Origin: Styela clava
Lineage: Eukaryota; Chordata; Ascidiacea; Stolidobranchia; Styelidae
Assembly (NCBI RefSeq): GCF_964204865.1
Contig: NC_135251.1
Span: 24,366,001 to 24,430,000, forward strand
Reading direction: 5' to 3'
Length of the DNA: 64,000 nt
The translations under genes were made by a program, and so were the position numbers. Numbering within the stretch: the first letter of the stretch is position 1; every line of letters starts with the position of its first letter. The notes beneath the pieces are model-generated. The model was given only the letters and a program-made list of their open reading frames with translations, searched no databases and was not told the origin of the DNA. Below are positions 579 through 57,156 of this stretch, in pieces.

Positions 579-9456
<8,878 letters not shown>

Positions 9457-11948: not shown

Positions 11949-14509
11949 ATGAAACAGAAGATTGGGTTCGTGGTGCTTCTTCAGGCCTTACAGGTCTTGG
12001 CGGCGCCTGAGCTGATGTCACAATGTGATGGGAGTGTTACGGTATGTGAAGGAATCGTCATAAAATCTTTTCATTCGTATAAAATAGTCTAATTAACAAG
12101 ACTAAAGCCTATTGGTTGTGAATACACGTAACACTTTTTAGAGAAATATTTTTGCATGGAAATTATATTGAAAAAATATATCATTGTGAATGAACGAAAA
12201 TTAGCCGCTAACTCAGTATATTCGACGAAAATGTTTTCTTGGTGCAACAAAAGCGGAAAGTTCAGACAAACAATGCTTTTGTTATAAGTGTGTACATACA
12301 ACCACTTTAATAAAAAAACTTAATAAGAAATACAAATCGGCAACATTTGCTTTTAAATGACATATTTACACTCAACTAACTCAATCAAATATTCCAAAGG
12401 AATCCGTTTATTCTTACAATGTAAATACATTGGATGATCAAGCAGTGGATTTGGGTCTGTTCAACGGATCGATTGCTGTTATCATGAACTCAGCATGCTT
12501 CTGAGGTTTAACACCGACCATGCTACCCGGCATGAATGCACTTCTCACGGTGAGTATATTTACCCTTTGAGTAATCATTCCAAGATGCATAATATTCAAG
12601 CCACCCCCAAATACCACTAGTACATTACATGCAAAATTTAAAAAAAATCTGCTATATTGCAATGAAAAAATGAGAACAACCAGATGCCGAACAGTTTTGA
12701 ACCGCAGAAAGGATAATTTTTTAAATTCATAAATCGCAATGAAACGTTTCTATTCTATTCGGTGGTGATTCCAGTTATTACATAAAATTTAGAAATCTAT
12801 TGTCTAAAGCCCCTGCCAACGCTCAAAACAAGAAAGTTAGTAATTATCCAGTCAGGGTTAGGAATGCAGGTTGAGCTGGAAATTCAAATTTTCTAATCAT
12901 AGCTGACCCTAACCCCAACTGGATAATTTGGTATTTTAAAACTTTGCGGGAGTGTTTTTCAAACTTTTCAAACATTAGTGGCGGAGGTTGGTACAAAATA
13001 TACAAATTGTCGATACGCTAACTTATATGCTAGTGTACATGGCACATCAATCAAAATGAAATATGTCTAGTCAAAATGACTAGTCGACAGCGCATACATA
13101 GTTTAAATAATAGTGGCCTTTTTTAACAGAAATATGAGGAAGCCGGAGTAGTTGGTCTAGGGTTCCCCTGTAACCAATTCAAAAAACAAGAGCCAGGGAG
13201 GCCCGATGAAGTGATGAATTGTTACGAGTTTGTTCGTCCAGGGGAAAGTTGGGCACCACACAACTTGTACAACATCTTTGGTAAAGTCGACGTCAACGGA
13301 GTATCGGCGCACTCACTTTATAAATTCTTAAAGGTACTTTACTTTGTTTATGTTCAATTTTCAATACGCTGCGTGCGTTCTCGTAAGCTAACTGCGACCT
13401 TCCTATATCTGATACAGCACCTGATAAACTCCCTTTCAATATAATCACCATTTGGCGTGACACCGATACAGAAATATGACTTAAATGAAGGTTAAAAACG
13501 ATAAAGTGGTATAATTTAATATTTGGTTGTTTTCCGCAAAACCTTGAAGCAGTCATGTGGATATACTTAGATAATCATAAAATTCTTGGTAACTGTATAC
13601 CTATGGCATTCAATGCTAAATTTTCTTAATAAATTCTTCTATTGCAACAAGGCTTCTTGTCCCGCGGTAACAGAGAACATCGGTAATAGACAACTGATGT
13701 ATTGGGATGATATAGATGCTCGCGATGTCACATGGAACTACGGAAAGTTTCTCATCGACTCTACCGGAAAACCAAGGTAATTCATATGACTGGAGATTTC
13801 AAATCAGAACCGGTTATTCGATGTCTGAAGCTAAAAAATTGAAAAAATAGGTTGATTACGCTTCCACTCGAAGACTTTTGACACTTAGTAATTCAGTTGC
13901 TCTATTCATAGGCTTACCATATATCTGAGACAAAATAAAGGGGCAGTACGGATGGGACGAGCCAACCTTGGCTCGATTCTGAGGCTTAGTAATAGTTTAA
14001 TCTGTTTCCATGCCTTTGTGGGTATATTACGGTCGTCAAAATTAGCTGTGAATCATATTAAAATATCCGCTATTGGTTTTGCCTTCAATAATGGAAATCC
14101 CCTTTCAACACACTTTAGAAAACTTGTTTTTTTTTGGCATTTTGATGATTCAGCGACAGTACGGTCGGGTGTTAACGCATGGCTCATACTTTATATCATA
14201 ACTATGGCAATATAATCTAAACTAGTGAAGTGAGTTGCAAAGCGGTGGTAAATCAGCTACCTCAGTTATAAAAAAGTTTGTATCATTATTAAATGAGAAA
14301 TTGTTGTCATACTGCATGGACGGGACATTTAGGTCAACCGGCCGGGACGGCGGGACAACATGCTAAAATCGGGACGTATGGTAAGACTATCTATTCAGTT
14401 ACATATCCCATTATTTTTCAGGTATCGATTCGGACCTACCGTTACACTTGATCAGCTCTACCCGTATGTAGATGAGCTTATTGAAGAACGAGATGATATG
14501 ACCAAGTAA
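11949..14509 (+). CDS. gpx: Secreted selenocysteine glutathione peroxidase (GPX3-like)
   Basis: Reduces hydrogen peroxide and lipid hydroperoxides with glutathione or a similar thiol, probably outside the cell. Exons 11949-12041, 12400-12549, 13130-13333, 13652-13776 and 14422-14509 join in phase to about 219 residues (human GPX3 is 226). Exon 1 gives a hydrophobic signal peptide, then a CDG segment resembling the GPX3 N-terminus. Exon 2 has the active-site context NSACF-Sec-GLT; the Sec codon is TGA at 12502-12504 (about residue 66). Exon 3 has GFPCNQF and KQEPG, supplying catalytic Gln at about 101. Exons 4-5 have DVTWN, supplying Trp and Asn at about 177-178. Thus the full catalytic tetrad is present. 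A SECIS-like hairpin and polyadenylation signal follow the TAA stop. An automatic gene finder would split or drop this gene at the TGA. I am sure of the family; orthology to GPX3 alone, rather than the GPX1/2/3/5/6 clade, is uncertain. Confidence 0.93.
12502..12504 (+). other. In-frame UGA, selenocysteine codon
   Basis: The TGA lies in frame in exon 2 (102 nt after its start) between TTC and GGT TTA ACA, exactly where the GPX family has Sec before Gly-Leu-Thr. Phase is preserved on both sides and the rest of the enzyme follows, so recoding is far more likely than a nonsense mutation. Confidence 0.92.
13909..14389. mobile_element. hAT-like MITE, TAGGCTTACCATA ends, exact TSD
   Basis: The ends are inverted: TAGGCTTACCATA and TATGGTAAGACTA. 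An exact 8-bp duplication TCTATTCA lies at 13901-13908 and 14390-14397. It fills most of the last intron of the peroxidase gene, ending 32 bp before the final acceptor. Right subterminal text is rich in 'gggacggcgggaca'. Confidence 0.9.
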
Positions 14510-16900: not shown

Positions 16901-17486
16901 TATGCATTGAATTGACAAATTCAATTTTCGGATGTAAAATTACGCTGCAAATACCTGCAATTATAAATTTGTTTTGATTTGAATTATAAAAACACAAGCG
17001 GAAATATGCAAAATTACCCAACACACAACAAACAAAAAATTTAAATTTCAAACAATTGCACATACCGTGCCATCTGGTATTAATCGTGTCAGGCAACTAG
17101 GAAGCTTTGCTTTATGAAAATTTCTGAAGGCGATGCAACATAATAGATTTGTTAATTTGAACGACAGCAGCTAATATACTGAAAAATATTCTTGCTTCCA
17201 GCACAAAAAACTTCGTATTTGGTTTTAGCAACTCCATTTGTAATCAGTTGAAAATGGACGGAAAAACGATATTAAACCCAATAATATTTGTACCTTCTTG
17301 ACCCCACTATAGCTTCCAAATATGACATTTTTTTAGTATTAAGTAAATTTACAACGATATTGGGTTTCTAATATTTTCCTTGTGGAGAAGTGATTCATAG
17401 TAGATATGAACCCAGTACTTGACACGCAATGTGCGGCTGGGGACTCTGAGACTAATGTATAATAATTAACAACAATCGCTTATTTC

Positions 17487-18496: not shown

Positions 18497-18504
18497 TATA
18501 AATA
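18497..18504 (+). promoter_or_regulatory. TATA box, secreted precursor gene copy A
   Basis: TATAAATA lies about 30 bp before the gacaacagcaatccacttcg stretch that is conserved in both copies and likely contains the start of transcription. Confidence 0.75.
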
Positions 18505-18524
18505 GTGGAATGCGACAACAGCAA

Positions 18525-18581
18525 TCCACTTCGAGAAGATATTGCCTTTACTACACGTAGTTTTGAAACATAAAGATACAG
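18525..18581 (+). other. Non-coding first exon, secreted precursor copy A
   Basis: The exon runs from the expected start about 25 bp after the TATA box to a GT donor at 18582. It is strongly conserved with the copy B leader, including caatccacttcgagaagat, and joins to an AG acceptor at 19029-19030. Confidence 0.65.
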
Positions 18582-19039
18582 GTATGTATATTAACAAAAT
18601 ATTTCGTTAGCATGTTGAATTACATTCGTGTTACAGTAAATATTGCCAGTCGTCATTTGCTGTAGGCCAACTTGACAGTAAATAAACCCAGATAATAAAT
18701 GTTCACTATGTTTGTGTGTTGCGTGGTATGTTCTATATTTTCAACTAGTGGAAAAAACAACATTTCAGGCTTAACACAGACAGACCACATTAAACAGAAA
18801 AGACACGTGAAGATTTTTCGACAATTATCTCTTCGATTACATCGGTTCAATTTCACTTTTGTGATGCATCAACTAGATCAAGCATCAAACTAGATCAATC
18901 ACTAGATGATGCTTTGATCAAGTTTCTTCGCGTTAATCTAAATACAATTTAGTTTATTGGTATTAGTCAAACATTGACGTCGTCCAAGAGAAATTATACA
19001 TGGCCATTAATTTTATTTATATCACAACAGGTTTGCAAA

Positions 19040-20027
19040 ATGAAGCTGGTTATTGCCCTTGTTCTTGTTGCAATTTTTGCATTCGAGGAGAGTGACGCAC
19101 GATACGTAAGTAGAGGAGCCTACAATATTCAAGTTCGACAAGTCGCGTACTGGAGAAATCGTTACAGCGCACTTGCTAGAAGTTACAATGCACTCGCAAG
19201 TAGATGCAGAACTGTGAGTTACACCCGGTACAACAGACTACTTGCAGGATACCGCAAACTGGTGGCGTTCGTGAATCGCATGCGTGTCGCATCTCACAAT
19301 ATGCATAACACTCACAGGTAGGATTGCTAGGTCTAAAATTGACCAATTGTTTCAATATTGGATTCTTGTTTGTATTAATCAAAGTCGAATAAATACATAT
19401 TATACCGATGAAAGACGTGATGCCGAATCATCAGTTATTTAAATAAATTATTCAAATCTCTCGTCCTTTATATATACATTCCGCCAAAAGTACTCGATAC
19501 TTTAGGATTCCACATTCCTGGGCTAATTCACATCAACAAAATAATTGGTAAATAATCTAAGAATCAATAATTTTATTATATCATGAAATCTCTCGCAAAT
19601 TTCTAAAAAAATTTAACAGACGTATTGCCGGTGGAGACGAAGACATGCCAGAAATGCAGCTTGTTGAGGTATAGTCTATTTATATAGAATAAGTTAGTAA
19701 AATGTTGATGGAATCATTTACAAAATTCGTTCAAATATAATAATGTTTTATTTGTACGCGAAGGGTGAAGGTCAAATATTATAAATCACAATACACGAGT
19801 GATGGGTAACTTATATACATCTATATACAGGACTCAGAAGACATGAATGAACTCCTGAATTTGCTTCCTGAATTCAACGAAGATGTCGACGACCTCCCTG
19901 CCTTGAGTAAGACAGAAAATATTTTCAGAATTCATTTTATTGCCGTAAACCCCTTATTTATTTATTTATTTTACTTTCAGCCGAAGAGGTCGAACAAGAT
20001 GAAGAAATTGAGAAATCCGAAGACTAA
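19040..20027 (+). CDS. Secreted Arg/Tyr-rich precursor with acidic tail, copy A
   Basis: No named family is recognised. Coding exons 19040-19317, 19620-19668, 19831-19906 and 19981-20027 join in phase to 149 residues. Residues 1-21 are a signal peptide (MKLVIALVLVAIFAFEESDA). Residues about 22-93 contain some 14 Arg, one Lys, many Tyr, a single Cys and no Asp or Glu. Residues about 94-149 contain some 23 Asp/Glu and two basic residues. The charge switch falls at the exon 2/3 junction, next to an Arg-Arg pair that could be a processing site. A cationic peptide followed by a neutralising acidic propiece is the layout of ascidian antimicrobial precursors such as styelins, so a host-defence peptide is the leading guess. 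Other charge-paired secreted proteins are possible. The start at 19040 is chosen because an upstream in-frame ATG lies in the intron. AATAAA is at 20125. Confidence 0.8.
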
Positions 20028-20124
20028 TCGATTTTTCCAGGCAAGCATAGATGACAGAAAAATTGCAACTGAAACTGTGATTCGTATATGTGCTGCTCAT
20101 TTGGTTATTGTTAATTTAGTGCAA

Positions 20125-20130
20125 AATAAA
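20125..20130 (+). terminator. AATAAA signal, copy A
   Basis: AATAAA lies about 100 nt after the stop codon of the copy A precursor gene. The equivalent site in copy B is mutated to an A-run. Confidence 0.6.
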
Positions 20131-20180
20131 CAGATCCATCTTTTGATGATGTTTATCCTATAATCCAGATCGACTTAAAA

Positions 20181-22650
20181 AATTTAATAATTGATTGGAT
20201 TCTTTGTAATTTTTTTTCGAGGTGGGGGTCGTCGAGGCATGGCGAAGGCGAATATATATATATGTATTTATAAGGTGGATATACACGTGTAATTATCTGC
20301 AGACACATGTTAGTCCGGGCATTTCATATCTGATATCCTCGACAAAATCAAACCCAAAATTGCAAGTGTTAGGTAAAAACACATTAAGTGTTATTAAGAC
20401 AAGAGAATGATTCTCAAATATATAGTCACGAATGCCAAAACATTTCACATCAACGGCAGCTTATCCTCAGCTTAACAAAACAGGTATCGGAAAACTTTCT
20501 CGTAGCACAATTTCGCAAAATCAACACGGAAGAGAGTCGTCACACTTTGCGGATCAATAACGGGGTTCCCATTAAAAAAATAATATACAGTAAAATTTAG
20601 GATGAAATATCAGTCGTTATTGGATTTATATAAAATTTAGAAGAAAATAAAAGTCAACAATCTTTAATCACTGAATATTTCAATTAACAAGAAGAAAATA
20701 CCAACAAGAAGATCAACAACAACATAATAACAAAACGCCCCATACATACCTTTCTTGTCCAACAAATAGCAAAATAAACAAACTTAAATACAGCTTAAAT
20801 GGTGTATAGTACATTTTATGCCAAACCCAAACTAAAATCAGAATGTACGCGGAGTACAAACAACTGCGCTGCTAATTAGTAACTATGACATGCTAGTAGT
20901 TGACGTTAGACATAATTTACTGATTGACGTGACCATGGATTTCGAAACACTGATGAGAAGATTGTGATCAGCTCCCAATATTTCGGCGCTGTTTTTACCA
21001 ATAAGTCGAGTAAAAACTGCAAAACTGCAAAACAGGTTGCCAACATGTGCAACGATGCAAAAGCAGTCCATGTAATTCAAATTCCCATCAATCGCTTGCA
21101 GAGCGATGAGTATATTTCAGGTTTGAAGTAATATAAAGTTGAAAGTTCAAAATGAATTATAAAGTTATGGTTTACACCGACATTCAATGGATGGTGCCCA
21201 CTCCCAGGCCTTTCTTTGTTTATATCTGTAAAAAAGGAAATCAGCAGTAAGTCAACAATTGTAATTTGAACTGCCGCTCAGACATTCTTCCGCTCAGACG
21301 CATGGTTTGTCAGCATTGTTGTTTCCCCGACCTTTGACCCTAGGCAAATTCTCTCTATACTTTAGCCTTACGAATGTTTTCATGCTTATTATGGAATTGT
21401 TTTAGTGAGTTAGCGCTTACAAACTGGTTAAATGATAAAAAACGTCAAATATTAATAAAAAAAATATTTAACCACGTGTCGCTTAATTTAAGGTATTGGT
21501 AGGCTTACCATACGTCCCGCTTTTCAGCGTTTTGTCCCGCCGTCCCGATAAGTCAGCCAAAAGTCCCGCTTTTCCAGCATAATACACAAACATGTTCTCG
21601 TTACTGTTGTTTCTGTGTAGCGCAGCGCTAGCCTACTTACTGAAGATGAATGCGTTCGTTTTCTGCTGATTCCCATTGATGGCAGACGTATCGCATGTAA
21701 AACCAATACTAATTAGTCTAAATTCGAATTATTTGTACCGGTATCGTTAACGTCAATTCCTTCCTATTTTTCGAACTGAACCCGATATTTGGACAGAGAA
21801 TATGCGCATGAAATTCCGATAACAATATGGTCAATAAACACAGCCGAGATAGCTTTAAATGTAGGAATGTAGGCCTATGTAGTAAAATCGGAAAATGTGA
21901 AGTTATGAAAACACAGCTAAGGGGTCGTTGTCTTTCGAGAAAAATATGGTAACCCTAGGTATTGGTAGCTGAATTTTAGACTTGTCTATCGCAGCTTTTT
22001 CGTAACTACGGTAACTAATATTGCAACTAAGCTAAAGCTCCTACGAAGTCATAATGACAATTAAGTTATATGATTTTTAACCAATTTTTGGAAACAAAAA
22101 TGAAAACTGACAAATAACACGCAAAACTAAGAAAACGGGGCAATGTTTAAAATCAAGCTTAAATATCTGTCTGAGCGGTTAGACAAATTTCAATTGGTGT
22201 GCTCGAGGAAACATTCATTGTCTCGTTTTCGTGGTTTTTGCGAGTTAATTTTTAGTTTTGAGTTGTGTTTCCAACAATAAGTTGTAAATGAAATAACAGA
22301 ATTAAAAATCATGTCTTCTGAAGAGTTTTAGTGTAGTTGAAGTAAATAAAAGTTTCTCCCCAGTCTAAAATTAACTATCAGAACCTTCACGTGGTTGAAT
22401 ATTTTTAATGAAAATAATGGCCTTGTACATGTAAATGTGATTGTAATCGCTGATTTCAAAACACTCTCAAAAGAGCATCAAAAATTTTTCATTTAGCAAA
22501 CTTTTTGTATTTTTATACTTTCAGTGTATTTACATTTACTTATAACGTAATTATGATCTAGAGAAAAGTAGGTAAATATGGACATTTACGCTCTGTAAGA
22601 TCAAAATTACTTGCTGCAATGTGCATTTATTAATTATCTCAGGACAATCA
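20181..22650. other. Spacer between the duplicated genes
   Basis: No coding exon is recognised. It contains the MITE at 21500-21957, a repeat end near 20710-20760, and text at about 21320 (tttccccgacctttgaccct) that recurs near 31990 and 36010. Confidence 0.5.
21500..21957. mobile_element. hAT-like MITE, TAGGCTTACCATA family, exact TSD
   Basis: The left end TAGGCTTACCATACGTCCCG and right end TATGGTAACCCTA are inverted. An exact 8-bp duplication, GGTATTGG, flanks it (21492-21499, 21958-21965). The subterminal 'gtcccgccgtcccg' is shared, inverted, with the element at 13909-14389. Confidence 0.9.
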
Positions 22651-23681
22651 GGATTTAACGGTGTAAAATTACAATTCAATCAGAAATTTTCTACAATTTG
22701 AATGACAAAAACAAAAGCGAGAATATGCAAAACAACCTAATACACAAAGAACAGAAAATTTAAATTCTAAACGATTGCTCTCATCGTGCCATCTGGTATT
22801 AATTGCGTCAAACAGGAAGCGTTGCTTCATGAACATTTCAATGCAAAAATATAACTCAGATGTGGCTTCAAATCTCTTATTTTATTTATATTACAACTGT
22901 TCTTTTTAGATTTAAAGTTATTGTTTATATTTAGGAACGCTATTTTAAAAAGCGAACCCGTGAATTTTGTACCCGCTATATCTTCAAAATATGACATGTT
23001 TTTGCACATCGCTAAAAATTGGATTTTAGTATTTGTCTTGCGGAGAAGTGATCCATACTAAACCCATCTCAATACTTGACACGCAATGTAGGGAGATGGA
23101 TTCTGGAAGTTCATTAACAAACATTTTCAAATAATTGTCTACGTTGAAAATCTAGTATACACACATTTCACTGAATCTCGATACTAATATAAAAATCGGA
23201 ATGTTTTTGTAACTTTACTAATGAAAAATGTGTGGGTTTCGGCATTGTGTATATTTCTTTATGCACGTCTTTTTTTAAATTATCAAATCGGTTGTGAAAT
23301 AGTTTACAGTTAGTAGCCTGAGCCGGAGCGATTGCCAACTTCAGGAAATAAACCAGGAAATAACCGCAAATGGTCTGTTACAAAATTTTGTTCATACAAA
23401 TGAAATCTCTCGAACAATTCATACAGAGTTTTGTGAAGATCAAAGCGTTAAAAAATTGGAATTCAAAAGTAGACCATCTTTGGATATCAAATTATCAGCA
23501 GTGGATCTTTGAATATTTCCGGAAAGCCTTATAATTTACAAACAACAGAACAACTCGAAATTTTGAATAACTGATCATTCGTTTGCATATTGCGCACAAT
23601 CTGTCATGGTCCTATTGCTTATAACAATAATTCGATTTTAATAGAAAGTTCTTAATGAATGCAAAATAGTAGATGGCAGTG

Positions 23682-23689
23682 TATAAATA
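23682..23689 (+). promoter_or_regulatory. TATA box, secreted precursor gene copy B
   Basis: TATAAATA is in the same conserved context as in copy A (gtgtataaatag, then ccgacaacagcaatccactt). Confidence 0.75.
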
Positions 23690-23706
23690 GAGGAATCCGA
23701 CAACAG

Positions 23707-23765
23707 CAATCCACTTCGAGAAGATATTGTCTTTACTACACATTGTTTGGAAACATAAACCACAG
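23707..23765 (+). other. Non-coding first exon, secreted precursor copy B
   Basis: The leader exon is conserved with copy A and ends at a GT donor at 23766. The acceptor is at 23844-23845, so the first intron is 80 bp here against about 450 bp in copy A. Confidence 0.65.
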
Positions 23766-23854
23766 GTATGAATCTAATCTAATTCGGTTTAATCTAATAC
23801 TTCGTTCAGAGTATATAGACATTTTTTTTATTTATGTCACAACAGGTTTGCAAC

Positions 23855-24873
23855 ATGAAGCTAGTCATTGCCCTTGTTCTTGTTGCAATTTTTGCATTCG
23901 AGGAGAGTGACGCTCGATACGTGAGTAGAAGAGCCTACAATATTAAAGTTCGACAAGCCGCGTACTGGAGAAGACGTTACATCGCACTCGCTAGAAGTTA
24001 CAATGCACTCGAATCTAAATGCAGAACTGTTAGTTACGGCAAGTACATCAAACTTCTGACGCACTACCGCAGACTGTTGGCGTTCGTGAACCGCATGCGT
24101 GCTGCATCTACCAATATGCACAACGTTCACAGGTAGGACTGTTATAGTAGGCTCAAACAAGCCAATTTTTTCAATATGGGGTATGCATTGTGTATGTGTT
24201 GAAGACAAATAAATACGTACTGATCAAGCAATGTGGTGTCGAATTATCGTTTTTATTTTTTTTATGTGTGTGTGTTACCACCATTGGAGTTATTGAGCAA
24301 CCTCGCCTATTATTCGCTGCATCAAAAAATCTCGTTAGCCTACTTCAAGATTCCATATTTATGGGCCAGTTTATACCAATGAATATAGTTGGTGAAATAT
24401 CTTAGTAAATAATAGTTTTATTATGTGGTGAAATTTCTCAAATTTTTCAATATAACCATGGCACATATGACTTTTTTAACAGCCGTATTGCCCGTGGAGA
24501 TGAAGACATGCCAGAAATGGAGCCTGTCGAGGTATAAATAAATTATACATTCATTTACAAAATGTATTTAATCAAATATAATATTTTTTACTATACAAAA
24601 ACAGCACGGATTAGTTTAAACTATAATAAATCACAGTACATAAGTGAACGCTAATTTATATCCATACAGGACTCAGAAGACGTGAATGAACTCCTGGATT
24701 TGCTTCCTGAATTCAACGAAGACGCCGAAGACCTCCCTGCCTTGAGTAAGACAGAAAAGATTTTTGGATTTTTTTTTATTCTCGTATCTCCTTTTACCCC
24801 CGTTTATTTGTTTCTTTTACTTTTAGCCGAAGAAGTTGAACAAGATGAAGAAATGGAGAAATCCGAAGACTAA
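23855..24873 (+). CDS. Secreted Arg/Tyr-rich precursor with acidic tail, copy B
   Basis: Paralogue of the gene at 19040-20027, with the same exon lengths and phases: 23855-24132, 24483-24531, 24670-24745, 24827-24873; 149 residues. The signal peptide is identical (MKLVIALVLVAIFAFEESDA). The basic core again has no acidic residues and one Cys. Substitutions are often charge-conserving or add charge (RNRY to RRRY, SRCRT to SKCRT). At the core/tail junction the Arg-Arg of copy A is Ser-Arg here, so cleavage there, if real, may differ. The tail is highly conserved and ends EKSED in both. The likely polyadenylation signal AATAAA is at 25026. Function unknown; an antimicrobial or other secreted cationic peptide is inferred from architecture only. 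Confidence 0.8.
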
Positions 24874-25040
24874 ACGATTTTTCCAGTCAAGAACAGATCA
24901 CAGAAAATTTGCAATCGGAAGTCCAATACTTTTATGTTGCTTATTTGTTTATTGTCAAATTATTGCAAAAAAAAAAGCAGATCCATCTTTTGATGAAGTT
25001 TATCATATAACCATGATCGAATTCAAATAAAATTGATTAT

Positions 25041-25395
25041 TTGATGGAATTCTCTGTTTCTTATCAATGTCTTAATAGGGTCAGGAGGAATAGGATTTCG
25101 TGCCAATGTAATACAACGCCATGGAAACTACTGAGTGGATTCCTTCGCGACATGATATTTTAGATTACCAAACAGATCTCGTCAGGTGCTTCGTTCTGGT
25201 AATATTAGGCAACTTAGAAACATTTGGGAGGCAACATCAGGGTGTTGTAAATGTGAAAAACAGGGCTGCCGAAAGTTCGAGCTGTCCGCGCGATGAATTT
25301 TTGCAGTTTACCACAGGCCTACAAGGATGACGAGCTCAAAAAAGTGCTTCGTTCAAATCTGTTTGCGCTACATTTCGAAATCATTTGTATAATAT
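25041..25395. other. Intergenic, no feature recognised
   Basis: No gene or resolved repeat was seen in this stretch between the copy B gene and the inverted-repeat element that follows. Confidence 0.4.
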
Positions 25396-26218
25396 CGTCA
25401 CGCTAATAACCGAATTGCGTAAGTCATTTTTGGCGATTTTGAGTTTTTTATAAAATAGGTATTTATGTAATGCTGCGCACCTGTCTGTTAACTCAGATTT
25501 TATTTTAAGAATTCCGAAACCCATAAAAATGGAGATTTAGTATGACATGCACATTTGTGCAATTGTTTCGTCATAATGAATTATCATTATTACCGCAGGA
25601 CTATTGTGACGTCACAAAGGCAAAATAACCTCGGCGAAGTATTTTCGAGTTTTTGCATCTCGGATTTTAGCTTAGCGCGTATTAATTTAAATTTACACTA
25701 CAGTATAGGAGGACGTGCACTTGTGATATTCACTGTCCGAGTCCAATTCACCTTGGTTGGCTTTTATATTGGGTGCATTGCTGTTTTATTCTTTATATTT
25801 AATCTTAGTCTTATTTCGGTGGGTGTGCAGAACGTGTTATATCGATGAAATATATATTTTTAAACTTAAAAATAATGTAATTGAAACTGATTAGCTATTT
25901 TCTGGATTAGACATTGTAGATACTGAGAATTACATTCGTTTTTGGAATGTTTAGTTTTCAGGACTGGTGCATATAGTAAAGTTGCAAAATTGCGTATGTC
26001 CCCAAGTCATAGACACATTTCTGCCTAAGTCACAGTGCGCCATTATGACGTCACTCAACTGCGTCATACAAATTAACTTAAATCCGGCTACGATCAAAAA
26101 ATTGAACCATGGCAAATTATTGACTCTCAATGGCATAACAATATCATTAGACAGTTTTTTACGTTTTTCTCAAAATTGCTAAAAATGACTTACGCAATTC
26201 GGTTATTAGCGTGACGAT
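25396..26218. mobile_element. Inverted-repeat element with about 40-bp ends
   Basis: A left stretch beginning tcgtcacgctaataaccgaa, and running on through attgcgtaagtcattttt, is repeated in inverse at the right end (aaaaatgacttacgcaat, then tcggttattagcgtgacga). The flanks are TA on both sides, compatible with a TA target duplication, though this is weak evidence. No transposase is visible. Confidence 0.75.
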
Positions 26219-27089
26219 ATGTTATTCAATTTTCATGAATAATCAAAAATATTGTCATTTACGATCATCTCAGCAGTGATACAGAAAAATTTGTATTGCT
26301 GACTGAGTTTCCTGACATGACAATTTGCTGTACAGCTCTAGATAATCATCATTATCGTACAATTTATTTACAAAAGGTGGAGATACAAATATATTCAGAT
26401 AGGAACTGGTGGCAAAAAATATATATATATATAAATATATAGGAGTCTACGAAACAAACTTTTCCGCAGCTACAGTATAAACTGCTGTGGCACCCATAGA
26501 ACGATGTCGATAACGTCATGTAAGATGAAGTAGCACTAAACATCGGGTAGGAAGTCGCGTTGGTCAAATGATTTTAGCATGTATAGGATTGATCACGACA
26601 GAGACCGAAGACGCTTTAACAAAAAAAGCTTGCCACATAGAAGAGGAAATACAAAACCCATCAACCGAAACATCAAAAGAATAGGTCATTTAAATAATCC
26701 ATGTATATATATAGATGTTTTTATCAGGCGGCTATTTGATCGCACAAAGGCAAAATATATAAATGTTGAGCGTGTAGTTATTGGTTTGGGCAATTGCATA
26801 TTTCTATTCATTTAATTTCATTATTTTACATTTATTTAGTTTTCAAATTTATTTGTATTGTTGATCTCATTTTCTCTCGGTTGTTTTTATCATGCACTTA
26901 CTAGCATTTCTGGTTTGCTTTTGCTTTTGTAGTTAGGCCTACGATCCATTCTGATAGTATTTATTTCTGATACACTTGTATAACACAGGAACTTTCCAAT
27001 AGGTGGTACAACATTAAAACTTTTGTTTTAGTCTTAACTGGAAAATGGCATCCGGTGTGGATTGTTCATTGCAAGTCAGCTACGACCAG
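26219..27089. other. Intergenic, no gene seen
   Basis: AT-rich sequence with a TA-rich microsatellite near 26420-26440. No coding exon is recognised. Confidence 0.4.
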
Positions 27090-29118: not shown

Positions 29119-30978
29119 TCAATGTGTTGATTTCATAGCTATAAGATTTTTAGTCATGTCAAAACTGTTGCTGTCTGGCTGAAGACTAATTCTTTTGCCA
29201 TCATGGAGATCGGCACATAAAAACCCACTGCTGTCAATCCCAACTATCACACCTTTAGTAAAAACTTTGTTGCTTGGGTGAGAAATTTGAATTTCTTGAT
29301 TGCTGTGTATCCAGTATTTGTAATATAATTTTAGGAATTCGTCTGCCCCATTTACCTGATAAGAGTTTATCATATCCTCTAAACATGACAATGTTCGTGC
29401 TAAAACTTCTTCGCATGTTAAAGGTGAATATGGAATATTTGCTATTCTTATAGCATCATTGATACACTTGGTTGGAAAATCATTGCTGACATTAACTCCA
29501 CAACCGATCGTCGTAATCAGATTGTTATTGAACATCGTAGACTTGACCAAAACACCACCAATTTTAATGTCTCTTCCAATGTAAATATCATTTGGCCATT
29601 TTACCCGTAGATCTAAATTGACCAGCTCAGGAATTGAACGTAACGCGTGAACAACAGATACAGTTGTCAAATGTTGCAAAACAGACATACGTTGACCCAA
29701 ATTTGACCATTTAGATACTGACAATACATGGGAAAACATGGCCGTACCAATTGGACTTAACCACTTATTACCACCCCTCCCTTTACCTTGAGTTTGCTGT
29801 TTAGAAATACAAGTCACAGTAATGTCATTTTTATGTAACATCTTCCCTGTAAAAGGTTCTACAATGTCCATTGTAGAAGTGACAACATCTGAGTAAATAA
29901 TGGTTTTTGCAAATCTTTTTGTTTTCAAATTCTGTTGGAATTTTATCCAATCAAAATTTATTGAATTTGATGCCGATTCAGGATTCGGACAATGAAGGAC
30001 AGGTACGAATGGGTTTGTGGTATTACTTGATACCAATGACTGCATCAATTCACTCGTAAAACCTTGGACTTGCATAAATTTTAGGCTTGTTGAAGTGCCT
30101 TTCAAGACACATGATTCAGGATGGACAATATCCAAGTCTTTAAAAAATGCAGACAGTTCATCAGGATTTTCACTCAGGATAACACACGGTGTCTCTTTTG
30201 GAATTGACATGTTCAATTCAGACATAGTTGCAATATCCAACTCCCGGAAAAAGTAATTCAACAAAACTTTGCTATTTTCATCCACTGAGCAATCTTGACA
30301 ACAATGCTTGCCTGAGTCACAGCATGTCAACAAAGGCAGCGAGCAATGCAATATTTTCCCACCATTTCGAACTGATATTATTGCAACAGGATCCAGTTGG
30401 GAATCATTAAATTTTGAAGATAATACAACACTGTTTGACGCTGATTGAAAACTATCAGAGGATTGAAACACTCGCCCGCAGAATTCTAAAACGGGAGCTT
30501 CAGAAAATGGTTTGTTAAATTTATCTATGAAACAGCATTTATCAACAGGTTCTATGTCGCGAGTTTGGAATTTAAAATATTTTGCAACTTCCGAAGAAAA
30601 GCTAAGAATCTTTCCATGTAAAGAAAGGTACTTTTCGAGCAAAACAATTTCAGATTCATCCAGGTCAACATTTTTACTTGCTGTACTTGGTACAACTAAC
30701 AGTTGGCAATTGTCCATCCATGGAGCACTGGCAGCCTCTTCATATCGTAAACGATAAACAGCAAACTTATCTAACGGGAGGCATCTTTCTACAGCAACTG
30801 TAAGACAATCTTTTGGACAGTTTTGAATAGATTTTGGTTGGTATACCAGAATATTCGGAGGTTTCATTACTGAGCCTTTAGAATTATTAGCATTGATATT
30901 TAAAATTGGCTTGATATAACTCTGGTGTGCTTGAATACGTCTAAGCATTAAGATAGGATCAACAATTAAATTTGCCAT
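29119..30978 (-). CDS. HLCS: Holocarboxylase synthetase (biotin protein ligase)
   Basis: Joins biotin, through biotinyl-AMP, to the conserved lysine of carboxylases. One uninterrupted 619-residue frame. The C-terminal catalytic domain shows GKGRGGNKW (about residue 400, biotin/ATP loop), KWPNDIY (about 460), IGGVLVK (about 473) and GCGVNV. The C-terminal cap ends near SNSFDMTKNLI, much as in human HLCS. The N-terminal half corresponds to the vertebrate HLCS N-terminal region and is more diverged. It is shorter than human HLCS (726 residues). The absence of introns is striking beside intron-rich neighbours. The start codon lies 15 nt after the stop of an upstream small frame on the same strand (30994-31230). 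The spacer contains no AG, so a trans-splice acceptor directly before this start is not available. Confidence 0.95.
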   Translation of the reverse strand: MANLIVDPILMLRRIQAHQSYIKPILNINANNSKGSVMKPPNILVYQPKSIQNCPKDCLTVAVERCLPLDKFAVYRLRYEEAASAPWMDNCQLLVVPSTASKNVDLDESEIVLLEKYLSLHGKILSFSSEVAKYFKFQTRDIEPVDKCCFIDKFNKPFSEAPVLEFCGRVFQSSDSFQSASNSVVLSSKFNDSQLDPVAIISVRNGGKILHCSLPLLTCCDSGKHCCQDCSVDENSKVLLNYFFRELDIATMSELNMSIPKETPCVILSENPDELSAFFKDLDIVHPESCVLKGTSTSLKFMQVQGFTSELMQSLVSSNTTNPFVPVLHCPNPESASNSINFDWIKFQQNLKTKRFAKTIIYSDVVTSTMDIVEPFTGKMLHKNDITVTCISKQQTQGKGRGGNKWLSPIGTAMFSHVLSVSKWSNLGQRMSVLQHLTTVSVVHALRSIPELVNLDLRVKWPNDIYIGRDIKIGGVLVKSTMFNNNLITTIGCGVNVSNDFPTKCINDAIRIANIPYSPLTCEEVLARTLSCLEDMINSYQVNGADEFLKLYYKYWIHSNQEIQISHPSNKVFTKGVIVGIDSSGFLCADLHDGKRISLQPDSNSFDMTKNLIAMKSTH

Positions 30979-30993
30979 GTAAATTCAAGAATA

Positions 30994-34545: not shown

Positions 34546-37500
34546 TCATTTTTTAGCAAAAGTGACATGCATTGCGTGAGTTGGAGAAATTTTGAAACCT
34601 TCCAGTGAGTCTTTTGCAGATGCAGATTGTCCTTCATTATCGAATTCAACAAACGCAATGTCATGTCTGCCAGGAACCATACGTATTTCTTTAAATCCTG
34701 GGAACCTGAACATTTAACGTACAAAGTTAATCTTCTTAACTCATGAAACTAAAAATAACAGTAATATAAGAATTGACACTATCAGTTGTTGAACAATCCT
34801 TCCAAGCGAGCAACTTTCAGATAAATACCTGTTGCATAAAACTTTAAGCATTCCTTCATCTGTTTCCTCTGGCAAATTGTCCAAAAACAAAATATGATTT
34901 GGTGGATTGTTTCTGCCATCATCAGTTGGCTTCGTCCCAGGTACCACTACAAATGGCAAAATATGGAAATTGAACAAATAGCAAGAAAACAAAAAAATTA
35001 AATTTTTTAAAATCTAGTTTCAGACTAATTTCCATCTTCCATTCTTCAAGTTTTTAATAGCGATGTAATGAATCCAATTTTTACACATAAGTTGAATATT
35101 AATAACGTACAAACACTGCTACAAATAAATATCTTATCAAAGCCTACTTGGCATCATTCCTGGCATGGCTGCGGCTGCTGGTCCATTTGATGCTCCTTTT
35201 TTTGCCTGAAAGTGATGTAGATACATTTAAATAATATTTAAAACTACTGAATAACATGCAATGTTCCTAAGAGTTGAAAATCAACCTTGGATTTAGTTTC
35301 TTTCTTCTTTTTCTTCTTTGGTCTTTCCTGAAATGTTCCTTTGAGTTTCGCAATTATATCTGAATCTTTCTTGGAATAAGCGATTCTCTATACATCACAA
35401 GAAGCAAACAACAAAAATCAGTATAAATTGTTAAAAATATAAATTAACTTTTGTCAAATTGCACAGATATAGATAAAAAAGGGTTAATTTCAGAAGTGTT
35501 ACCATAGGTTTGTCGTAAAATGGAAAACCCTGCATTGAGCGTATTGCATTAGATGCACTCGATATTTCTTTGAAGATCACAAAAGCCTGCCCACGCATCT
35601 TCAATGTTTTAAGAGCCACAATGTCCAATATTTGTCCAAATTGTGAGAAGATCGCATAAAGTGACTTTTTTAACTCTGGAAAAAAATATTCATTATGTCA
35701 GTCAATTGCGCTGTTGTTAAAAAACTGACTGGGATATTTTTATGATAAAAACCACTAGGCCTACCCAAAAACTCATCTATTGAATACAGCAATATGGCTG
35801 GTATACCAGTATGCTGATTAGAGGTAAGATCGGGACCAAAAATTCCAGCCTGACCCGACCCCGACCCAACTGGATTTGCAGGCCAGACTCACCTGAGCCT
35901 GAATAATTAACTGGATTCGCAGGCCCGAGCCCGAAGCAAACCCGAAATTCTTAAAATAAGTCACGAAAATTTTGCAATGGTAAAGTATAGGAAGAATATT
36001 TCCGGGGGTCAAAGGTCGGGGAAAGGTCCATTACAGCTTTTTCTCCGTTTTACTCACATTATTTCTTTTATAACAAGTATTCCTTAGATTAGTATCCACA
36101 CATAGTTTTAGTATATATTTTTATAAAAAAAGTCAGCGATAGAGAAGCCCGACCCGAACATAATGATTGACATTTCAGGCCCAACCTTACCCGAATTTCG
36201 GGTCGGGCTTCAGATCTTAGCTCTAATGCTGATACAAGTCTATATTCTCTATAACTTCAGACAAAAAAATTGACATTTTACCACCCAAAATACTCTCAGG
36301 CTTGCAAATCCGCGCCCGAAAACGAGAGTCTAGGCATACTCTCGTCGACCTCCTAACGGAATTCGAAAGATTCAATGACGTCATAGTGACGTCACATATA
36401 CTCCCGTCCCAGGAAAATGTTACGCGAGTCAGGCACGAGTCAATGTGTCTAATTATATCTACGCACACACTATCTACACACCTACTTTCGCTCGATAAAC
36501 ACTACTCCGTCGGTACCCTCGTTCTGCGATATTGCTACTTGCGAGCGTCTCATTAAATACTAATCAAGATAGCTGCGTGCTCTGCGACGCCGTTTTCCCC
36601 GCACGACGTAAATGACCTAATTATGTATCGGGGTAATCGACCATTTTGCCATTTTGCAGGTTTTGCTGCAAACTGTGGACTGTGAATAACTCTCAACAAG
36701 TTACCCTACAAAGAAAATAATAACTCAAGTTTTGCAAAATAAAGGGAGGAACTTTAATAAACGGCAGTCGCCGTTGCCATCGCCTTTTTTTTTTTTTTTT
36801 TTAATAAACAAAACCATTCATGCAGTCTGGCATTTGCCGTACAAACTGAAATCTATAAAATAAGTTCGCATGTAGCAGATGAGTTCATGCAAAATAAACA
36901 TCGCACAGAAAGAACGAAATTGAATATTAAACGCTAATCGCCGCCCGTCGACTTCGCATCATTTAAAATGTATAAAAAGAAAGGTTAGAAATTGTGTCGA
37001 CGAACAAAGAAATGCGTGAGACGCTTTCAGGTTCACATATCACAGTTTTAGTCTTCTTCCGACGAGCTATCGTCGATGTTTATTAGTTGAGTCTGTACCA
37101 AGCTGGGCTTTGCCGTTTCCAACCCCCCTAAAATTGAATTTATACGTCGTTTCACGAGACCTCGTTCAGACGTCCCATCGCTTCCCATAGATCGGGCGGA
37201 AGCCTTGTTGACCAGATTTTCTCGAATGGCCCCGTCTTCGAACTGTTCTTTTCGTGTGGCAATTAATAGAAGATCTTTTATCATATTGTGTCCGAGATGT
37301 GATCGCCAATCAGTGAGAATTCGCCATAAACAACTGAACCCTCTTTCGACAACAGCATTTGAGAATGGTAAGCAAAGCACTAACTCGACAACGATTAACA
37401 AATTTTTATACGCCTCCTTTTTTCGCTGGTGCAACTTGTGCCAAAAGTCGGTAGTGCTCAAATCTTTGTAAACCTCATTTCCCTGGACGTCATACTTCAA

Positions 37501-40500
37501 ATCATCCCATTCTTTCAAGCATGCACCCTTCTCGCACCCAGCTGCGTGTAGAGGTACTTTGAAGTACTCAAAGACTTGTGAAAGATCCTGATTGCCATAT
37601 TCAGGGACGGACGCATTAATCCCGCCATCCGACATCAAGATTTCAGGGTTCAGCCATGATAACTTACTCAAAATGTTTTCTTGTTCTTCTATTTCTGTAA
37701 ATCGCTCGTCCAGGCAATCACGCAGATTTCTTATGCATTGCGATCTTGTTGTTTGGGATCTCTGGATGATGGTTTCCTCTGCAGAATGAAAAACCACGCT
37801 TTCCTCGTGTTCCAGGAGTCTGGCGGTCGGTGTTTCACGCCTTTTACAAGTAATGCGTATTGCCTTCGTTTGTCCACCATCTTCGTGTCTGGTAAAACGG
37901 AACGGAAGCGGAGTGCAATTTAGGTCGCCCCTGTCATAAGCATCGAGCGCTTCTCGCTCTGCAGGACCGCCGCGAAGTTCCATAGAAGTTAATTTCATTT
38001 TCAACCGTTTTATCTGCTTGGTAGCGTCAATAATGGATGACCCGTCATGATCTGATTGTATTGCGATTGACGTGGCAGATACCCAATTTACGATATCCTC
38101 GTATTGGCGACATAGGATATAGAACTTGAAGCTGTGAAGATTAACAAGAAATTTCTCAGCCTTCATATCTGACTCAGCCTCCCTCTGGTTAGTGAAATGA
38201 TGGATGTAAACAATCCAATTTGTTTTTAGCGCATGGAGTGCGTTGAGTGTGTGTGCCACAAATCTTGTGCCTTGCGACTTTGGTACACTAACAACCGCGG
38301 TCTGCAACTTTTCTGCCGCATTACATGCGGCGGCCCATTCTTTAGGGCTATTCCGAAAATGATAATATGTGTCAATAAGGAAGTCAATAACTTGTTTGAA
38401 ATGGGGGGTCAATGCGTCTTTCGATGCTAGTTCAATTCGATGTGAATAGCAATGTAGTTTGATTAGCCGACCAGGGCACACGTCCTCCCATTTTTTAAGT
38501 AAACCCGTTTTACGCCCAAAGTTAACAGCAGCGCCATCGGCGCCGGCCCCGATAATTTTTGAAGAAAAAGGCTTAATAAGTTCCACAAGATTTCAATGGG
38601 TGTCTCACAATTTGTTGTTATATCGGGAATCAGGAAACTCAACAGAGAGCGCAATGTAGCGTGGTACAAATTGTTAGCGTCCACTCGAACATATTCCTTC
38701 ATTGAAATCAAGTCAATTTCGTGTACAGCTGGTTTGCATTCGTGCGCTATTCTTATGTAAATTAGTTCCGACTCGTACGATAACTTGCGCTTGGCGACTG
38801 TTGACCCATCCACCATCCAGCTTAAAAAATTTACTTTTTTGTGCACTTCATTTCTCATTGAGGACAATATCTCCTCCGCGAGAATATGTATAAAGGCTTT
38901 ACAACCTTCTCTGTTACCATAGGACGTGGTTATTTTGCCGCCATTGTCTGCGCACAGTTGTAATAAGTCCGCAAACGCATTGAAAGGCAGTTCCTTCCTA
39001 GAGACATACAGTGAAGTACGAACAAGAGGTTTTATGGCGTTCTCCGCCCTCTGTTTTTGGCAGCCCCATAAGCGAGCGATACTTGTTTGCGTCGGGAGCT
39101 TCCCATTCTCAATTTCGACACACTTTAAGTGGCCCTCGGAATTGAGGTGTCGTTCTAAATTATATCTTAAAATCCAGTTGGTGCCATTCTCCCCGTAAGT
39201 CGTCACATCATTAACAACTTTGCCTCCATAGCCGCGCTGTATTCTGTCACAATGTTTTTTGCATACAATGCATGCTGCATGTACGACTTTGGTATTATCT
39301 TCGTTGAAACCGAACGTAAAACTGTCCTTTAATCTGTTTGGCCAAAACTTCCAGGCCGCTACAGAGACGGACCTTGATTTTTCCTCCATTTACTCAATCA
39401 TACAATTCATAATATCTCCTGTGGTATTTTTAAACAAACAAAAAAACGGTGTTACGCAAAGATACCCTTTTACCGGTAATTTACAACAAAACAGCCGTTA
39501 ATATAACTAATTAATTACACTAGCCCTAGTCTTACCGACATCTCATCTTTGTTAGTCTGCAACACTTCTATTAAATTCATAATACGCATTTGCAGTCTGC
39601 CTTATTACAAGGGAACATTCTGCATTCGCCAACGCCAAGTCGTCCGGAGGCGTGCCCGTGCTTGATTCCTCGCTTTTCGCTGTAATGTACTATTGTGACA
39701 TCATAAACCATCGCCCGCAAACGATTTTACGTCACTAAAGAATAAAGAGAGAGAGGCGGCGGAAAAAAATCGCCTCGGACTCTCGTGTACTGCTGGACGC
39801 GAGTAATGACGTTTTTTACGGGAGTAATAGCTAGACTCGGGTAGGGCAAAATACGCGAGTCTAGACTAGAGTATGACTCGCGTACTCGCGTAGATTTGCA
39901 AGCCTGTACTCTTATAAGAGTATATTAACTATAGGAATTGTGTATGCTGGTACGGGTTTGCATAGATACCGAACAAATACCATTGGCAAATTGGGTCTCC
40001 TGAAGTACGCGCCCTCAAGTACTTCTAGTGGGTGTAGCGCAGCGATTTTTGCTTATGATATTCCTAACCCTCACCTAAGTTCGTTACCCAAAAATTACAT
40101 CACTCGACATCACAATTGCGTCATAGAGCTTGCTAAAGTATTGCTACGATTTTCCGAAATAAACTATAATAAACTCACTATTGCCAGCGACCTCTCTCTC
40201 TCTCTTATCGTTATGACGGGAAAACGAGATAAATTGCTTGCTCGATTTCGGATGATTGTTTGCGCGACATACTGTATACTTTGGAGGGCCGTATGACGTC
40301 TCTGCGACTTCGCAGTGATGTAATTTTCGGATGTTGTACACAGGTAGGGGTTAGGAATGACATATGCAAAAATTGTTGAACCAGGCCAACTAGAAGTATA
40401 AGTGGGTGTGTACTTCAGGAGACCCTGTAAATTGGTCAACCATTCAACACATAGGCAGTAGAGATACCGTACTGAAATGGATCAACCAACTACTTCATTA

Positions 40501-41313: not shown

Positions 41314-44300
41314 ATGAAGCCAACTATTGAGGTAAGTGGGACTAGAAATGAATAAAATGTATAACATTTTAATAATGTACTGTTGGTAGGGTCTCCCTAA
41401 AACCAGGCACTCGCGAATTCAGACACTTTTTCAGGCACCATTTCAGGCACTTTGATATTTTTTTATTTTTACCGTACGTCATTGGGATTTCCAATTTACC
41501 TAACAGGATAATTAGACTTTGACTAATTTTTTGCATCCCTATATTGCAATAAAACAATATTATTTCCAATTTATTAGGGTATAAATAATTTTTCAATAGT
41601 AAAATGTGGCAACATTGATTACAAAATATAGAAATCAGGCACTTGTGAAATTTCAGGCACTTGGTAAAAACCTATTTTACAATGTATCTGATTACTCTAA
41701 AGCAGAAAATTAAATATATACACTTTGTATGGTTGAATTTTCAACTTTTTAGTAAAATACAATACCGTTTATGACTGATGGAGGCGTGTCATATTTCGCA
41801 AGTGCCTGATTTTTCATTTTTCTCAGTGACAGTTGCCATATTTTTTCGCAATTATTTTCTTAAATTATTTGCATCAGCACTTACTATTCTTTGCTTTCTA
41901 ACGCAAATTCATTGTTCCACAACAATTTGAGCGCTATTTAATACTGCAATGAGCAATACCATTTGACAACATATGGTCAACCATCGTACTTTCTGGATTT
42001 ATTTGAAATTGAATATGAATAATAAAATCTGGCAACCTCAAGCACAAAATACTAAAACCAGGCACTTGTGAAATTTCAGGCACTTCGTAAAAACCTATTT
42101 CTCGATGTTTTTACTTACTTTGAAGCAGAAAACTAAAATATACACTCTTTTGTATGATTGAAATGACGTCTTTTTGGTAAAAAACAAGAACGATTGGGAC
42201 TGGTCATGAGGGGTCAAATTTCGCAAGTGCCTGATTTTTCATTTTTTTCGATAACAGTTGCCATATATTTTCGCAACAATTTTTCTAGATTATTTGCGTC
42301 AGCACTTACTATTCTTTGCTATCTAACGCAAATTCATTGTTCCACAACAATTTGAGCGTTTTTAATATTGCAATGAGCAATACCATTTGACAACATATGG
42401 TCAACCATCGTACTTTCTGGATTTATTTGAAATTGAAAATGAATAATAAAATCTGGCAACCTCAAGCACAAAATACTAAAACCGGGCACTTGTGAAATTT
42501 CAGGCACTTCGTAAAAACCTATTTCTCGGTGTTTTTATACACTTTGAAGCAGAAAACTTAAATAAACACTCTTTTTTATGATTGAAATGACGTCTTTTTG
42601 GTAAAAAACAAAAACGATTGGGACTGGTGATGAGGGGTCAAATTTCGCAAGTGCCTGATTTTTCATTTTTTTCGATAACAGTTGCCATATATTTTCGCAA
42701 TAATTTTTCTAAATTATTTGAGTTAGAACTTACTAATCATTGCTTTTTAAAATAAATTCCTAGTTCTACAACAATTTCAGCGTTTTTACAATGAGCAATA
42801 TTATTTGACAACATATAGATAAACATCGTACTTTTTGGATTTATTTGAAATTGAATAGGAATGATAAAATCTGGCAACAGCGAGCACAAAATACTAAAAC
42901 CAGGCACTTGTGAAATTTCAGGAACTTCGTAAAAACCTATTTCTCGATGTTTTTACTTACTTTGAAGCAGAAAACTAAAATATACACTCTTTTGTATGAT
43001 TGAAATGACGTCTTTTTGGTAAAAAACAAGAACGATTGGGACTGGTCATGAGGGGTCAAATTTCGCAAGTGCCTGATTTTTCATTTTTTTCGATAACAGT
43101 TGCCATATATTTTCGCAACAATTTTTCTAGATTATTTGTGTCAGCACTTACTATTCTTTGCTATCTAACGCAAATTCATTGTTCCACAACAATTTGAGCG
43201 TTTTTAATATTGCAATGAGCAATACCATTTGACAACATATGGTCAACCATCGTACTTTCTGGATTTATTTGAAATTGAAAATGAATAATAAAATCTGGCA
43301 ACCTCAAGCACAAAATACTAAAACCGGGCACTTGTGAAATTTCAGGCACTTCGTAAAAACCTATTTCTCGGTGTTTTTATACACTTTGAAGCAGAAAACT
43401 TAAATAAACACTCTTTTTTATGATTGAAATGACGTCTTTTTGGTAAAAAACAAAAACGATTGGGACTGGTGATAAGGGGTCAAATTTCGCAAGTGCCTGA
43501 TTTTTCATTTTTTTCGATAACAGTTGCCATATATTTTCGCAATAATTTTTCTAAATTATTTGAGTTAGAACTTACTAATCATTGCTTTTTAAAATAAATT
43601 CCTAGTTCTACAACAATTTCAGCGTTTTTACAATGAGCAATATTATTTGACAACATATAGATAAACATCGTACTTTTTGGATTTATTTGAAATTGAATAG
43701 GAATGATAAAATCTGGCAACAGCGAGCACAAAATACTAAAACCAGGCACTTGTGAAATTTCAGGAACTTCGTAAAAACCTATTTCTCGGTGTTTTTATAC
43801 ACTTTGAAGCAGAAAACTAAAATAAACACTCTTTTTTATGATTGAAATGACGTCTTTTTGGTAAAAAACAAAAACGATTGGGACTGGTGATGAGGGGTCA
43901 AATTTCGCAAGTGCCTGCTTTTTCATTTTTTTCGATAACAGTTGCCATATATTTTCGCAACAATTTTTCTAAATTATTTGAGTTAGAACTTACTAATCAT
44001 TGCTTTTTAAAATAAATTCCTAGTTCTACAACAATTTCAGCGTTTTTACAATGAGCAATATTATTTGACAACATATAGATAAACATCGTACTTTTTGGAT
44101 TTATTTGAAATTGAATAGGAATGATAAAATCTGGCAACAGCGAGCACAAAATACTAAAACCAGGCACTTGTGAAATTTCAGGCACTTTGTAAAAACCTAT
44201 TTCTCGATGTTTATACTTACTTTGAAGCAGAAAACTAAAATATACCCTCTTTTGTATGATTGAAATGACGTCTTTTTTGGTAAAAAAGAAAAACGATTGG

Positions 44301-56809: not shown

Positions 56810-57156
56810 CTCGTTATTCTGCTTTTTGGCTACAAAAAATCGAAAAACATTAACTTTCAGCTCAATGCAACTTCCTCGCGCGGTGTTATTTGCTCACGTG
56901 ATCAGTTGACCGATGGATGAAAAATAGGCTTATCTTTTATTAGGTTTTGCTTGTGTTGTACGTTTGTTAATGACTCATTTATTTATATATAGTATTTTTT
57001 TATTTGAATATAAGTCATAAATATTGCGTATACACTAAATTGGTTTAGATCTATCGAAGAAATCATTCAAGCGTAGATCATTTTCTTTGTTTTGGTTCCT
57101 TTCTGATGCTCCACTAGGGCAAAATATTTTTTGGCATATCGTATGAGGTCTGGTTT
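56810..57156. promoter_or_regulatory. Divergent promoter region, RFC5 and ATG14
   Basis: Only 347 bp separate the start codons of two head-to-head genes. A CG-containing patch (cttcctcgcgcggtgttatt, about 56870-56890) lies near the RFC5 side and the rest is AT-rich. It is a candidate bidirectional promoter. Confidence 0.5.

Follow-up and report, generated by a model that had tools for sequence, protein, structure and literature searches.

What kind of protein is encoded by a closely spaced pair of genes in the ascidian Styela clava, whose products each join a strongly basic segment to a strongly acidic one? The genes lie in tandem on the forward strand of the 64,000-nucleotide stretch of DNA analysed here (contig NC_135251.1 of NCBI RefSeq assembly GCF_964204865.1, positions 24,366,001 to 24,430,000; hereafter, the window), at ~18.5–20.0 kb (gene 1) and ~23.7–24.9 kb (gene 2), and each comprises five exons with 149 codons and a stop. 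Both products show the same order of parts: a hydrophobic leader ending in Ser-Asp-Ala, a basic core and an acidic tail. An initial annotation, made from the letters of the sequence, had proposed that they represent a new family of antimicrobial peptides comparable with those of other ascidians.

In our estimate there is about an even chance that the secreted products of these tandem paralogues are prepropeptides of the ascidian cationic-peptide type with an antimicrobial core, a judgement that draws on analogy with published precursors. Our best reading is that the pair represents a sequence-new, unnamed variant of ascidian cationic-peptide precursors, for which we infer an antimicrobial function. 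Below we document the genes and their products, compare them with published precursors and weigh this reading against its rivals.

Results

Each gene is preceded by a TATA box, TATAAATA, at 18497–18504 for gene 1 and 23682–23689 for gene 2, conserved between the two in a pairwise alignment (all gene coordinates refer to the forward strand of the window). A non-coding leader exon with an approximate 5′ end follows at 18523–18581 (GT donor at 18582) and 23707–23765 (donor at 23766); 52 of its 59 aligned columns are identical, which bears out the TATA box and conserved leader exon described previously. Exon 2 (19031–19317, with the ATG at 19040; 23846–24132, with the ATG at 23855) encodes the signal peptide (residues 1–20) and the cationic core, as far as codon 93 in gene 1, and is 86% identical between the genes with zero indels. 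Exon 3 (19620–19668; 24483–24531) carries the end of the core (RIAGG in gene 1, RIARG in gene 2) and the start of the acidic tail (DEDMPE… in gene 1), exon 4 (19831–19906; 24670–24745) continues the tail and exon 5 (19981–20027; 24827–24873) supplies the acidic C-terminus and the stop codon, with an AATAAA at 20125 and 25026, respectively. Every intron in both genes is bounded by GT and AG and the coding phases are the same (2, 0, 1), so that two five-exon genes of 149 codons are present as claimed. Their proteins are identical at 122 of 149 residues. Tandem Repeats Finder reported a 21-base repeat of 1.9 copies within exon 2 of gene 2 (23972–24011), which reads as heptad-like.

The pair consists of real genes under selection on their coding exons, because the coding sequence has accumulated no indels (0 in 450 bases) while introns 2–4 hold 27 in 488 aligned bases; at the rate seen in those introns, 24.9 coding indels would be expected. 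Intron 1 was excluded from this count, as its length differs too much between the copies. Coding exons are 86–94% identical and introns 2–4 74–81% identical in pairwise alignments, or 64–78% with MAFFT. Indel-free coding exons alongside indel-rich introns contradict chance open frames, and, with splice signals and stop intact in both copies, we consider it exceedingly improbable that these are chance frames or pseudogenes that form no functional gene pair. Over the whole frame, the NG86 method gave a non-synonymous divergence (dN) of 0.107 and a synonymous divergence (dS) of 0.216, resolved by part into dN/dS of 0/0.25 (signal peptide), 0.175/0.237 (core) and 0.068/0.171 (tail). Amino-acid identity over the same parts was 20/20, 54/72 and 48/57, and the core changes faster than the signal peptide (P = 0.0099).

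Judged by eye, the hydrophobic stretch and terminal Ser-Asp-Ala mark the leader as a signal peptide. Residues 21–92 contain 14 Lys/Arg and no Asp/Glu in gene 1, and 17 Lys/Arg and one Asp/Glu in gene 2; the core of ~72 residues with ~15 Arg/Lys and no acidic residue that had been described is thus accurate for gene 1, but not for gene 2, which has Glu53. Each 72-residue core includes 13 Arg, 8 Tyr and one Cys (Cys56), the only core cysteine and invariant in both genes. In the last 57 residues there are 23 Asp/Glu (gene 1) or 25 (gene 2), in line with the reported ~56-residue tail with ~23 such residues. Charge is best split at +16/−22 after residue 94 in gene 1 and at +18/−24 after residue 97 in gene 2. 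Because intron 2 splits codon 93, the charge switch, previously placed at the exon boundary, is indeed close to it but falls a few residues inside exon 3.

Shuffling either protein 100,000 times with its composition preserved never produced charge segregation to this degree. When scored in length-scaled units, the products without their signal peptide reach 3.35 and 3.70, compared with 1.86 for the best of the 113 stop-to-stop frames of ≥75 residues in the window. Between the genes, core charge shifts by +2 and tail charge by −2 together, so that both proproteins stay at net −6. A neutral codon simulation running from gene 1 to gene 2 returned P = 0.034 for core net charge, P = 0.003 for tail charge, P = 0.037 for acidic positions kept and P = 0.10 for basic positions kept.

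AlphaFold2 models of the two paralogues predict a helix-turn-helix core, with helices at 5–38 and 41–70 in one and at 5–36 and 41–70 in the other. The mean helical moment exceeds that of shuffled sequences (P = 0.0008 for gene 1, P = 0.044 for gene 2). Using our own script on the hydrophobicity, moment and charge limits of a published Ciona screen (PMC7387483), with our version of the hydrophobicity scale and an approximated polar set, we found 41 (gene 1) and 38 (gene 2) cationic amphipathic, Cys-free 18-residue windows within those limits, spread over both predicted helices, as well as 31 and 38 anionic 18-residue windows. A core of ~77 residues that is Arg/Tyr-rich, has one conserved Cys and is modelled as two helices is unusual.

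The published ascidian layout consists of a signal peptide, a cationic amphipathic helix and an anionic tail, and an anionic helical C-terminus is present in 17 of 22 Ciona candidates (PMC7387483). Because so many Ciona candidates share an anionic C-terminus and because the core lies within the hydrophobicity, moment and charge limits of that study, the proposed likeness to ascidian antimicrobial precursors is supported. The layout is that of the linear cationic alpha-helical antimicrobial (LCAMP) precursors of Ciona, such as Ci-MAM and Ci-PAP (signal, cationic amphipathic helix and anionic C-terminal region), although helicity of the tail is here putative; as in the Ciona precursors, there is no shared dibasic site at the boundary, and acidic residues occur there (PMC7387483). 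In styelins and botryllin, too, the mature peptide is followed by a long acidic stretch (PMC2866484, PMC9966394). The prepropeptide of botryllin has 158 residues and includes a mature peptide of 37 (~77 here) with propeptide beyond it; botryllin is kept in morula-cell granules (PMC9966394). Styelins are Phe-rich, whereas these products are Arg/Tyr-rich and show no family match, which sets them apart from styelins by description. Dicynthaurin and halocidin from Halocynthia are helical, as is predicted here, and have a single cysteine, used there for dimerisation (PMC2866484, PMC7024374), dicynthaurin being a single-Cys homodimer (PMC2866484); their chains, however, have 15–30 residues and dimerisation here is a guess.

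Searches of the organism's own genome covered an assembly of 376.6 Mb in 379 contigs. At E ≤ 0.001, a threshold that more remote paralogues of the core may escape, gene 1 exon 2 hit nothing beyond the two genes (five candidates scored). A search with the region from leader exon to exon 2 as DNA recovered just this pair. With the gene 2 tail at E ≤ 10, all four matches fell within exons of the two genes; this search missed exons 3 and 5 of gene 1 and is thus of limited power where exons are short. Nothing in Pfam exceeded a curated cut-off: the best candidate was VPS51_Exo84_N (E 0.037), and ABC_tran_Xtn (E 0.038), RSS_P20 (E 0.12) and Mfp-3 (E 0.32) were also rejected as below cut-off, along with DpdI (E 0.055), the best match in NCBIfam. 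Two PDB matches (E 0.085 and 0.32) fell short of E ≤ 0.001, and Foldseek matches obtained with the low-confidence helical model as query (E 6.1 and 9.2) were non-significant. Pattern matches numbered 83 in bacterial and archaeal genome contigs and 14 in viral contigs, none confirmed as a relative. Six strings from the sequence were absent from the papers searched, which says little, as most sequences are never printed. The initial failure to recognise a homologue is therefore upheld by searches of Pfam, NCBIfam, PDB and bacterial, archaeal and viral contigs without a significant match; of the claim to a new family, the part that survives is a sequence new to the libraries searched, while the kind of precursor was already known.

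A tunicate origin was supported by a landmark elsewhere in the assembly. A GH6 domain occurs once (contig C9 16179895–16180164 (+), E 1.5e-6). On that strand, 1.8 kb upstream of it, Glyco_trans_2_3 and Cellulose_synt score above their Pfam cut-offs (C9 16177232–16178053 (+); L009:7232-8053). Every one of eight tunicates surveyed had the fusion of CesA to GH6, and 35 other metazoans all lacked a GH6 domain (PMC6523144). Judged from the sequence, GH6 adjoining CesA (GT2) on one strand corresponds to this tunicate hallmark, with a single transcript putative; the juxtaposition supports a tunicate origin because the fusion has been seen only in tunicates among metazoans. COX1, sought in the assembly as the basis of a mitochondrial-code test of the phylum, was not found.

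Around the pair, window positions 16958–17091 match 22677–22810 at 79%. These stretches precede the respective genes by ~1 to 1.5 kb, so that either the unit of tandem duplication is larger than the genes or the match reflects a repeat. Just behind gene 2, a 52-base inverted repeat (25392–25443 and 26169–26220, 96% complementary, 725 bases apart) is a possible small mobile element. Further away, a 418–425-base satellite-like unit forms arrays at 41595–44412 (6.7 copies) and 46575–47568 (2.3 copies), and a hAT-type transposase-like sequence with a dimerisation domain occupies two overlapping frames at 37051–39389 (−). Three copies of a 109-base unit, at 99% identity (802–1127), overlap the initial exons of a gene resembling AAA proteases and may reflect recent duplication or an effect of assembly. 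Neighbouring conserved genes encode an AAA ATPase (3926–4321 (+)), a glutathione peroxidase (13127–13441 (+)), a biotin protein ligase in one 621-codon frame (29122–30984 (−)), an RRM protein (35434–35697 (−)), a kelch protein (51612–51836 (+)) and a replication factor C subunit (55216–56893 (−)).

Discussion

If the two genes encode cationic-peptide precursors, their signal peptide would be removed after Ala20, as predicted, and the acidic tail (net −22 in gene 1, −24 in gene 2) would neutralise and shield the cationic core (net +16 and +18) in transit and during storage in granules; prodomains that oppose the action of the mature peptide on membranes, some of them C-terminal, have been described (PMC10608444). 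A protease cut before Asp99 would then free a mature protein of ~77 residues ending in Gly98, which might serve as an amide donor; turgencins are examples of amidated ascidian peptides (PMC7024374). Processing had originally been placed at the exon 2/3 junction, which we judge less likely. By analogy, a cut before Asp99 appears most likely, because residues 93 and 97 differ between the genes, Gly98-Asp99-Glu100-Asp101 is common to both, and cleavage N-terminal to D and DD is stated for styelins and clavanins (PMC7387483). Once released, the core is predicted to form a pair of amphipathic helices joined by a turn near residues 57–62; it may bind anionic microbial surfaces and permeabilise membranes, perhaps as a dimer joined by a Cys56 disulphide.

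Several observations count against an antimicrobial precursor. No NF-kappaB-like site in either of two consensus forms was found in the 1.1 kb before each gene. The core is about twice the length of the cited ascidian peptides (23–37 residues), and both products, with 149 residues, a 77-residue two-helix core and Cys56, lie outside the filters of the Ciona screen, in which precursors have 50–100 residues, no cysteine and cationic stretches of ~18–35 residues (PMC7387483); those filters belong to the screen, however, and do not describe botryllin, with 158 residues, or dicynthaurin, with one Cys. Confidence in the core models is low (mean pLDDT, the predicted local distance difference test score, 64.6 and 63.2), and the maximum helical moment is modest in gene 1 (P = 0.026) and not unusual in gene 2 (P = 0.28). 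No similarity to the mature or anionic segments in the Ciona table of PMC7387483 (21 of 22 rows, one near-duplicate row omitted) survived correction over 74 tests, 37 per gene; the best, the anionic segment of KH.L14.3, was matched by 83 and 34 of 40,000 tail shuffles (by 157 and 108 when the query was shuffled instead) and is not significant.

The evolutionary signals are similarly qualified. For the tail, maximum likelihood gave a dN/dS of 0.087/0.101 where NG86 gave 0.068/0.171, so the ratio depends on the method. A conserved leader with a fast-changing core is a pattern that, with two sequences, is only partly significant, because core and tail do not differ significantly in rate of change (P = 0.28). 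Retention of charge beyond the neutral codon model appears weak and holds in one direction only, as simulation from gene 2 to gene 1 gave nothing notable.

The main rival is a tyrosine-rich granule or adhesive protein: a Tyr/Arg-rich secreted matrix, adhesive or net-forming product, in which the core tyrosines (8 of 72) would be converted to dihydroxyphenylalanine (DOPA) and crosslinked in the tunic, a wound clot or an adhesive, while the tail would maintain solubility, or the two parts coacervate, until release. Such a role would suit the 8 Tyr and 13 Arg found in the core of each gene, a composition that recalls mussel foot protein 3 (PF04202), also short, secreted and Tyr- and Arg-rich, which gave a weak Pfam match (E = 0.32). 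That match, however, scored 11.9 bits against a cut-off of 22, mussel foot protein 3 is not known to have an acidic tail, and the core is predicted to be helical rather than a low-complexity repeat. Although DOPA is present in marine antimicrobial peptides (PMC10608444), a literature search for Tyr-rich DOPA adhesives of ascidians listed no evident counterpart, and on balance we think this explanation unlikely. We assign a slightly lower probability to an uncleaved helical protein whose acidic tail doubles back onto its basic core, acting as a storage, carrier or polyanion-binding granule protein. Core and tail charges are near balance and change together, no dibasic or RXXR site at the junction is common to both genes, and a split-charge single protein would be soluble without any cut; yet constraint on the tail differs from that on the core, and published ascidian precursors of the same layout are cut (PMC7387483, PMC9966394).

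Two further schemes strike us as improbable. In one, the two-helix, Arg/Tyr-rich, single-Cys polyampholyte of ~77 residues would be stored in granules as a charge-paired condensate, then cut and dimerised or Tyr-crosslinked, so as to kill microbes and also build an extracellular net; it would then form a class distinct from styelins, clavanins, Ci-MAM and halocidins. The other, which we rate lower again, is a precursor for a secreted peptide of another kind, whether in signalling, in reproduction or elsewhere (a gamete or test-cell product, for example), with charged parts unrelated to defence. Reproductive functions commonly involve secreted genes that evolve fast and are restricted to a lineage, but a 77-residue amphipathic cationic core would be unusual for a neuropeptide, and the 149 residues contain no repeated short peptides between dibasic sites.

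Conclusions

If the core is antimicrobial, as the cationic-peptide precursor reading holds, this pair would add to the ascidian repertoire a sequence-new and unusually long member with two helices and a cysteine, of a sort that escapes published screens because of their size and cysteine filters. The two genes, whose core and tail charges shift in concert, would also offer a small test case of how the toxic part of a precursor may stay masked while that part evolves.

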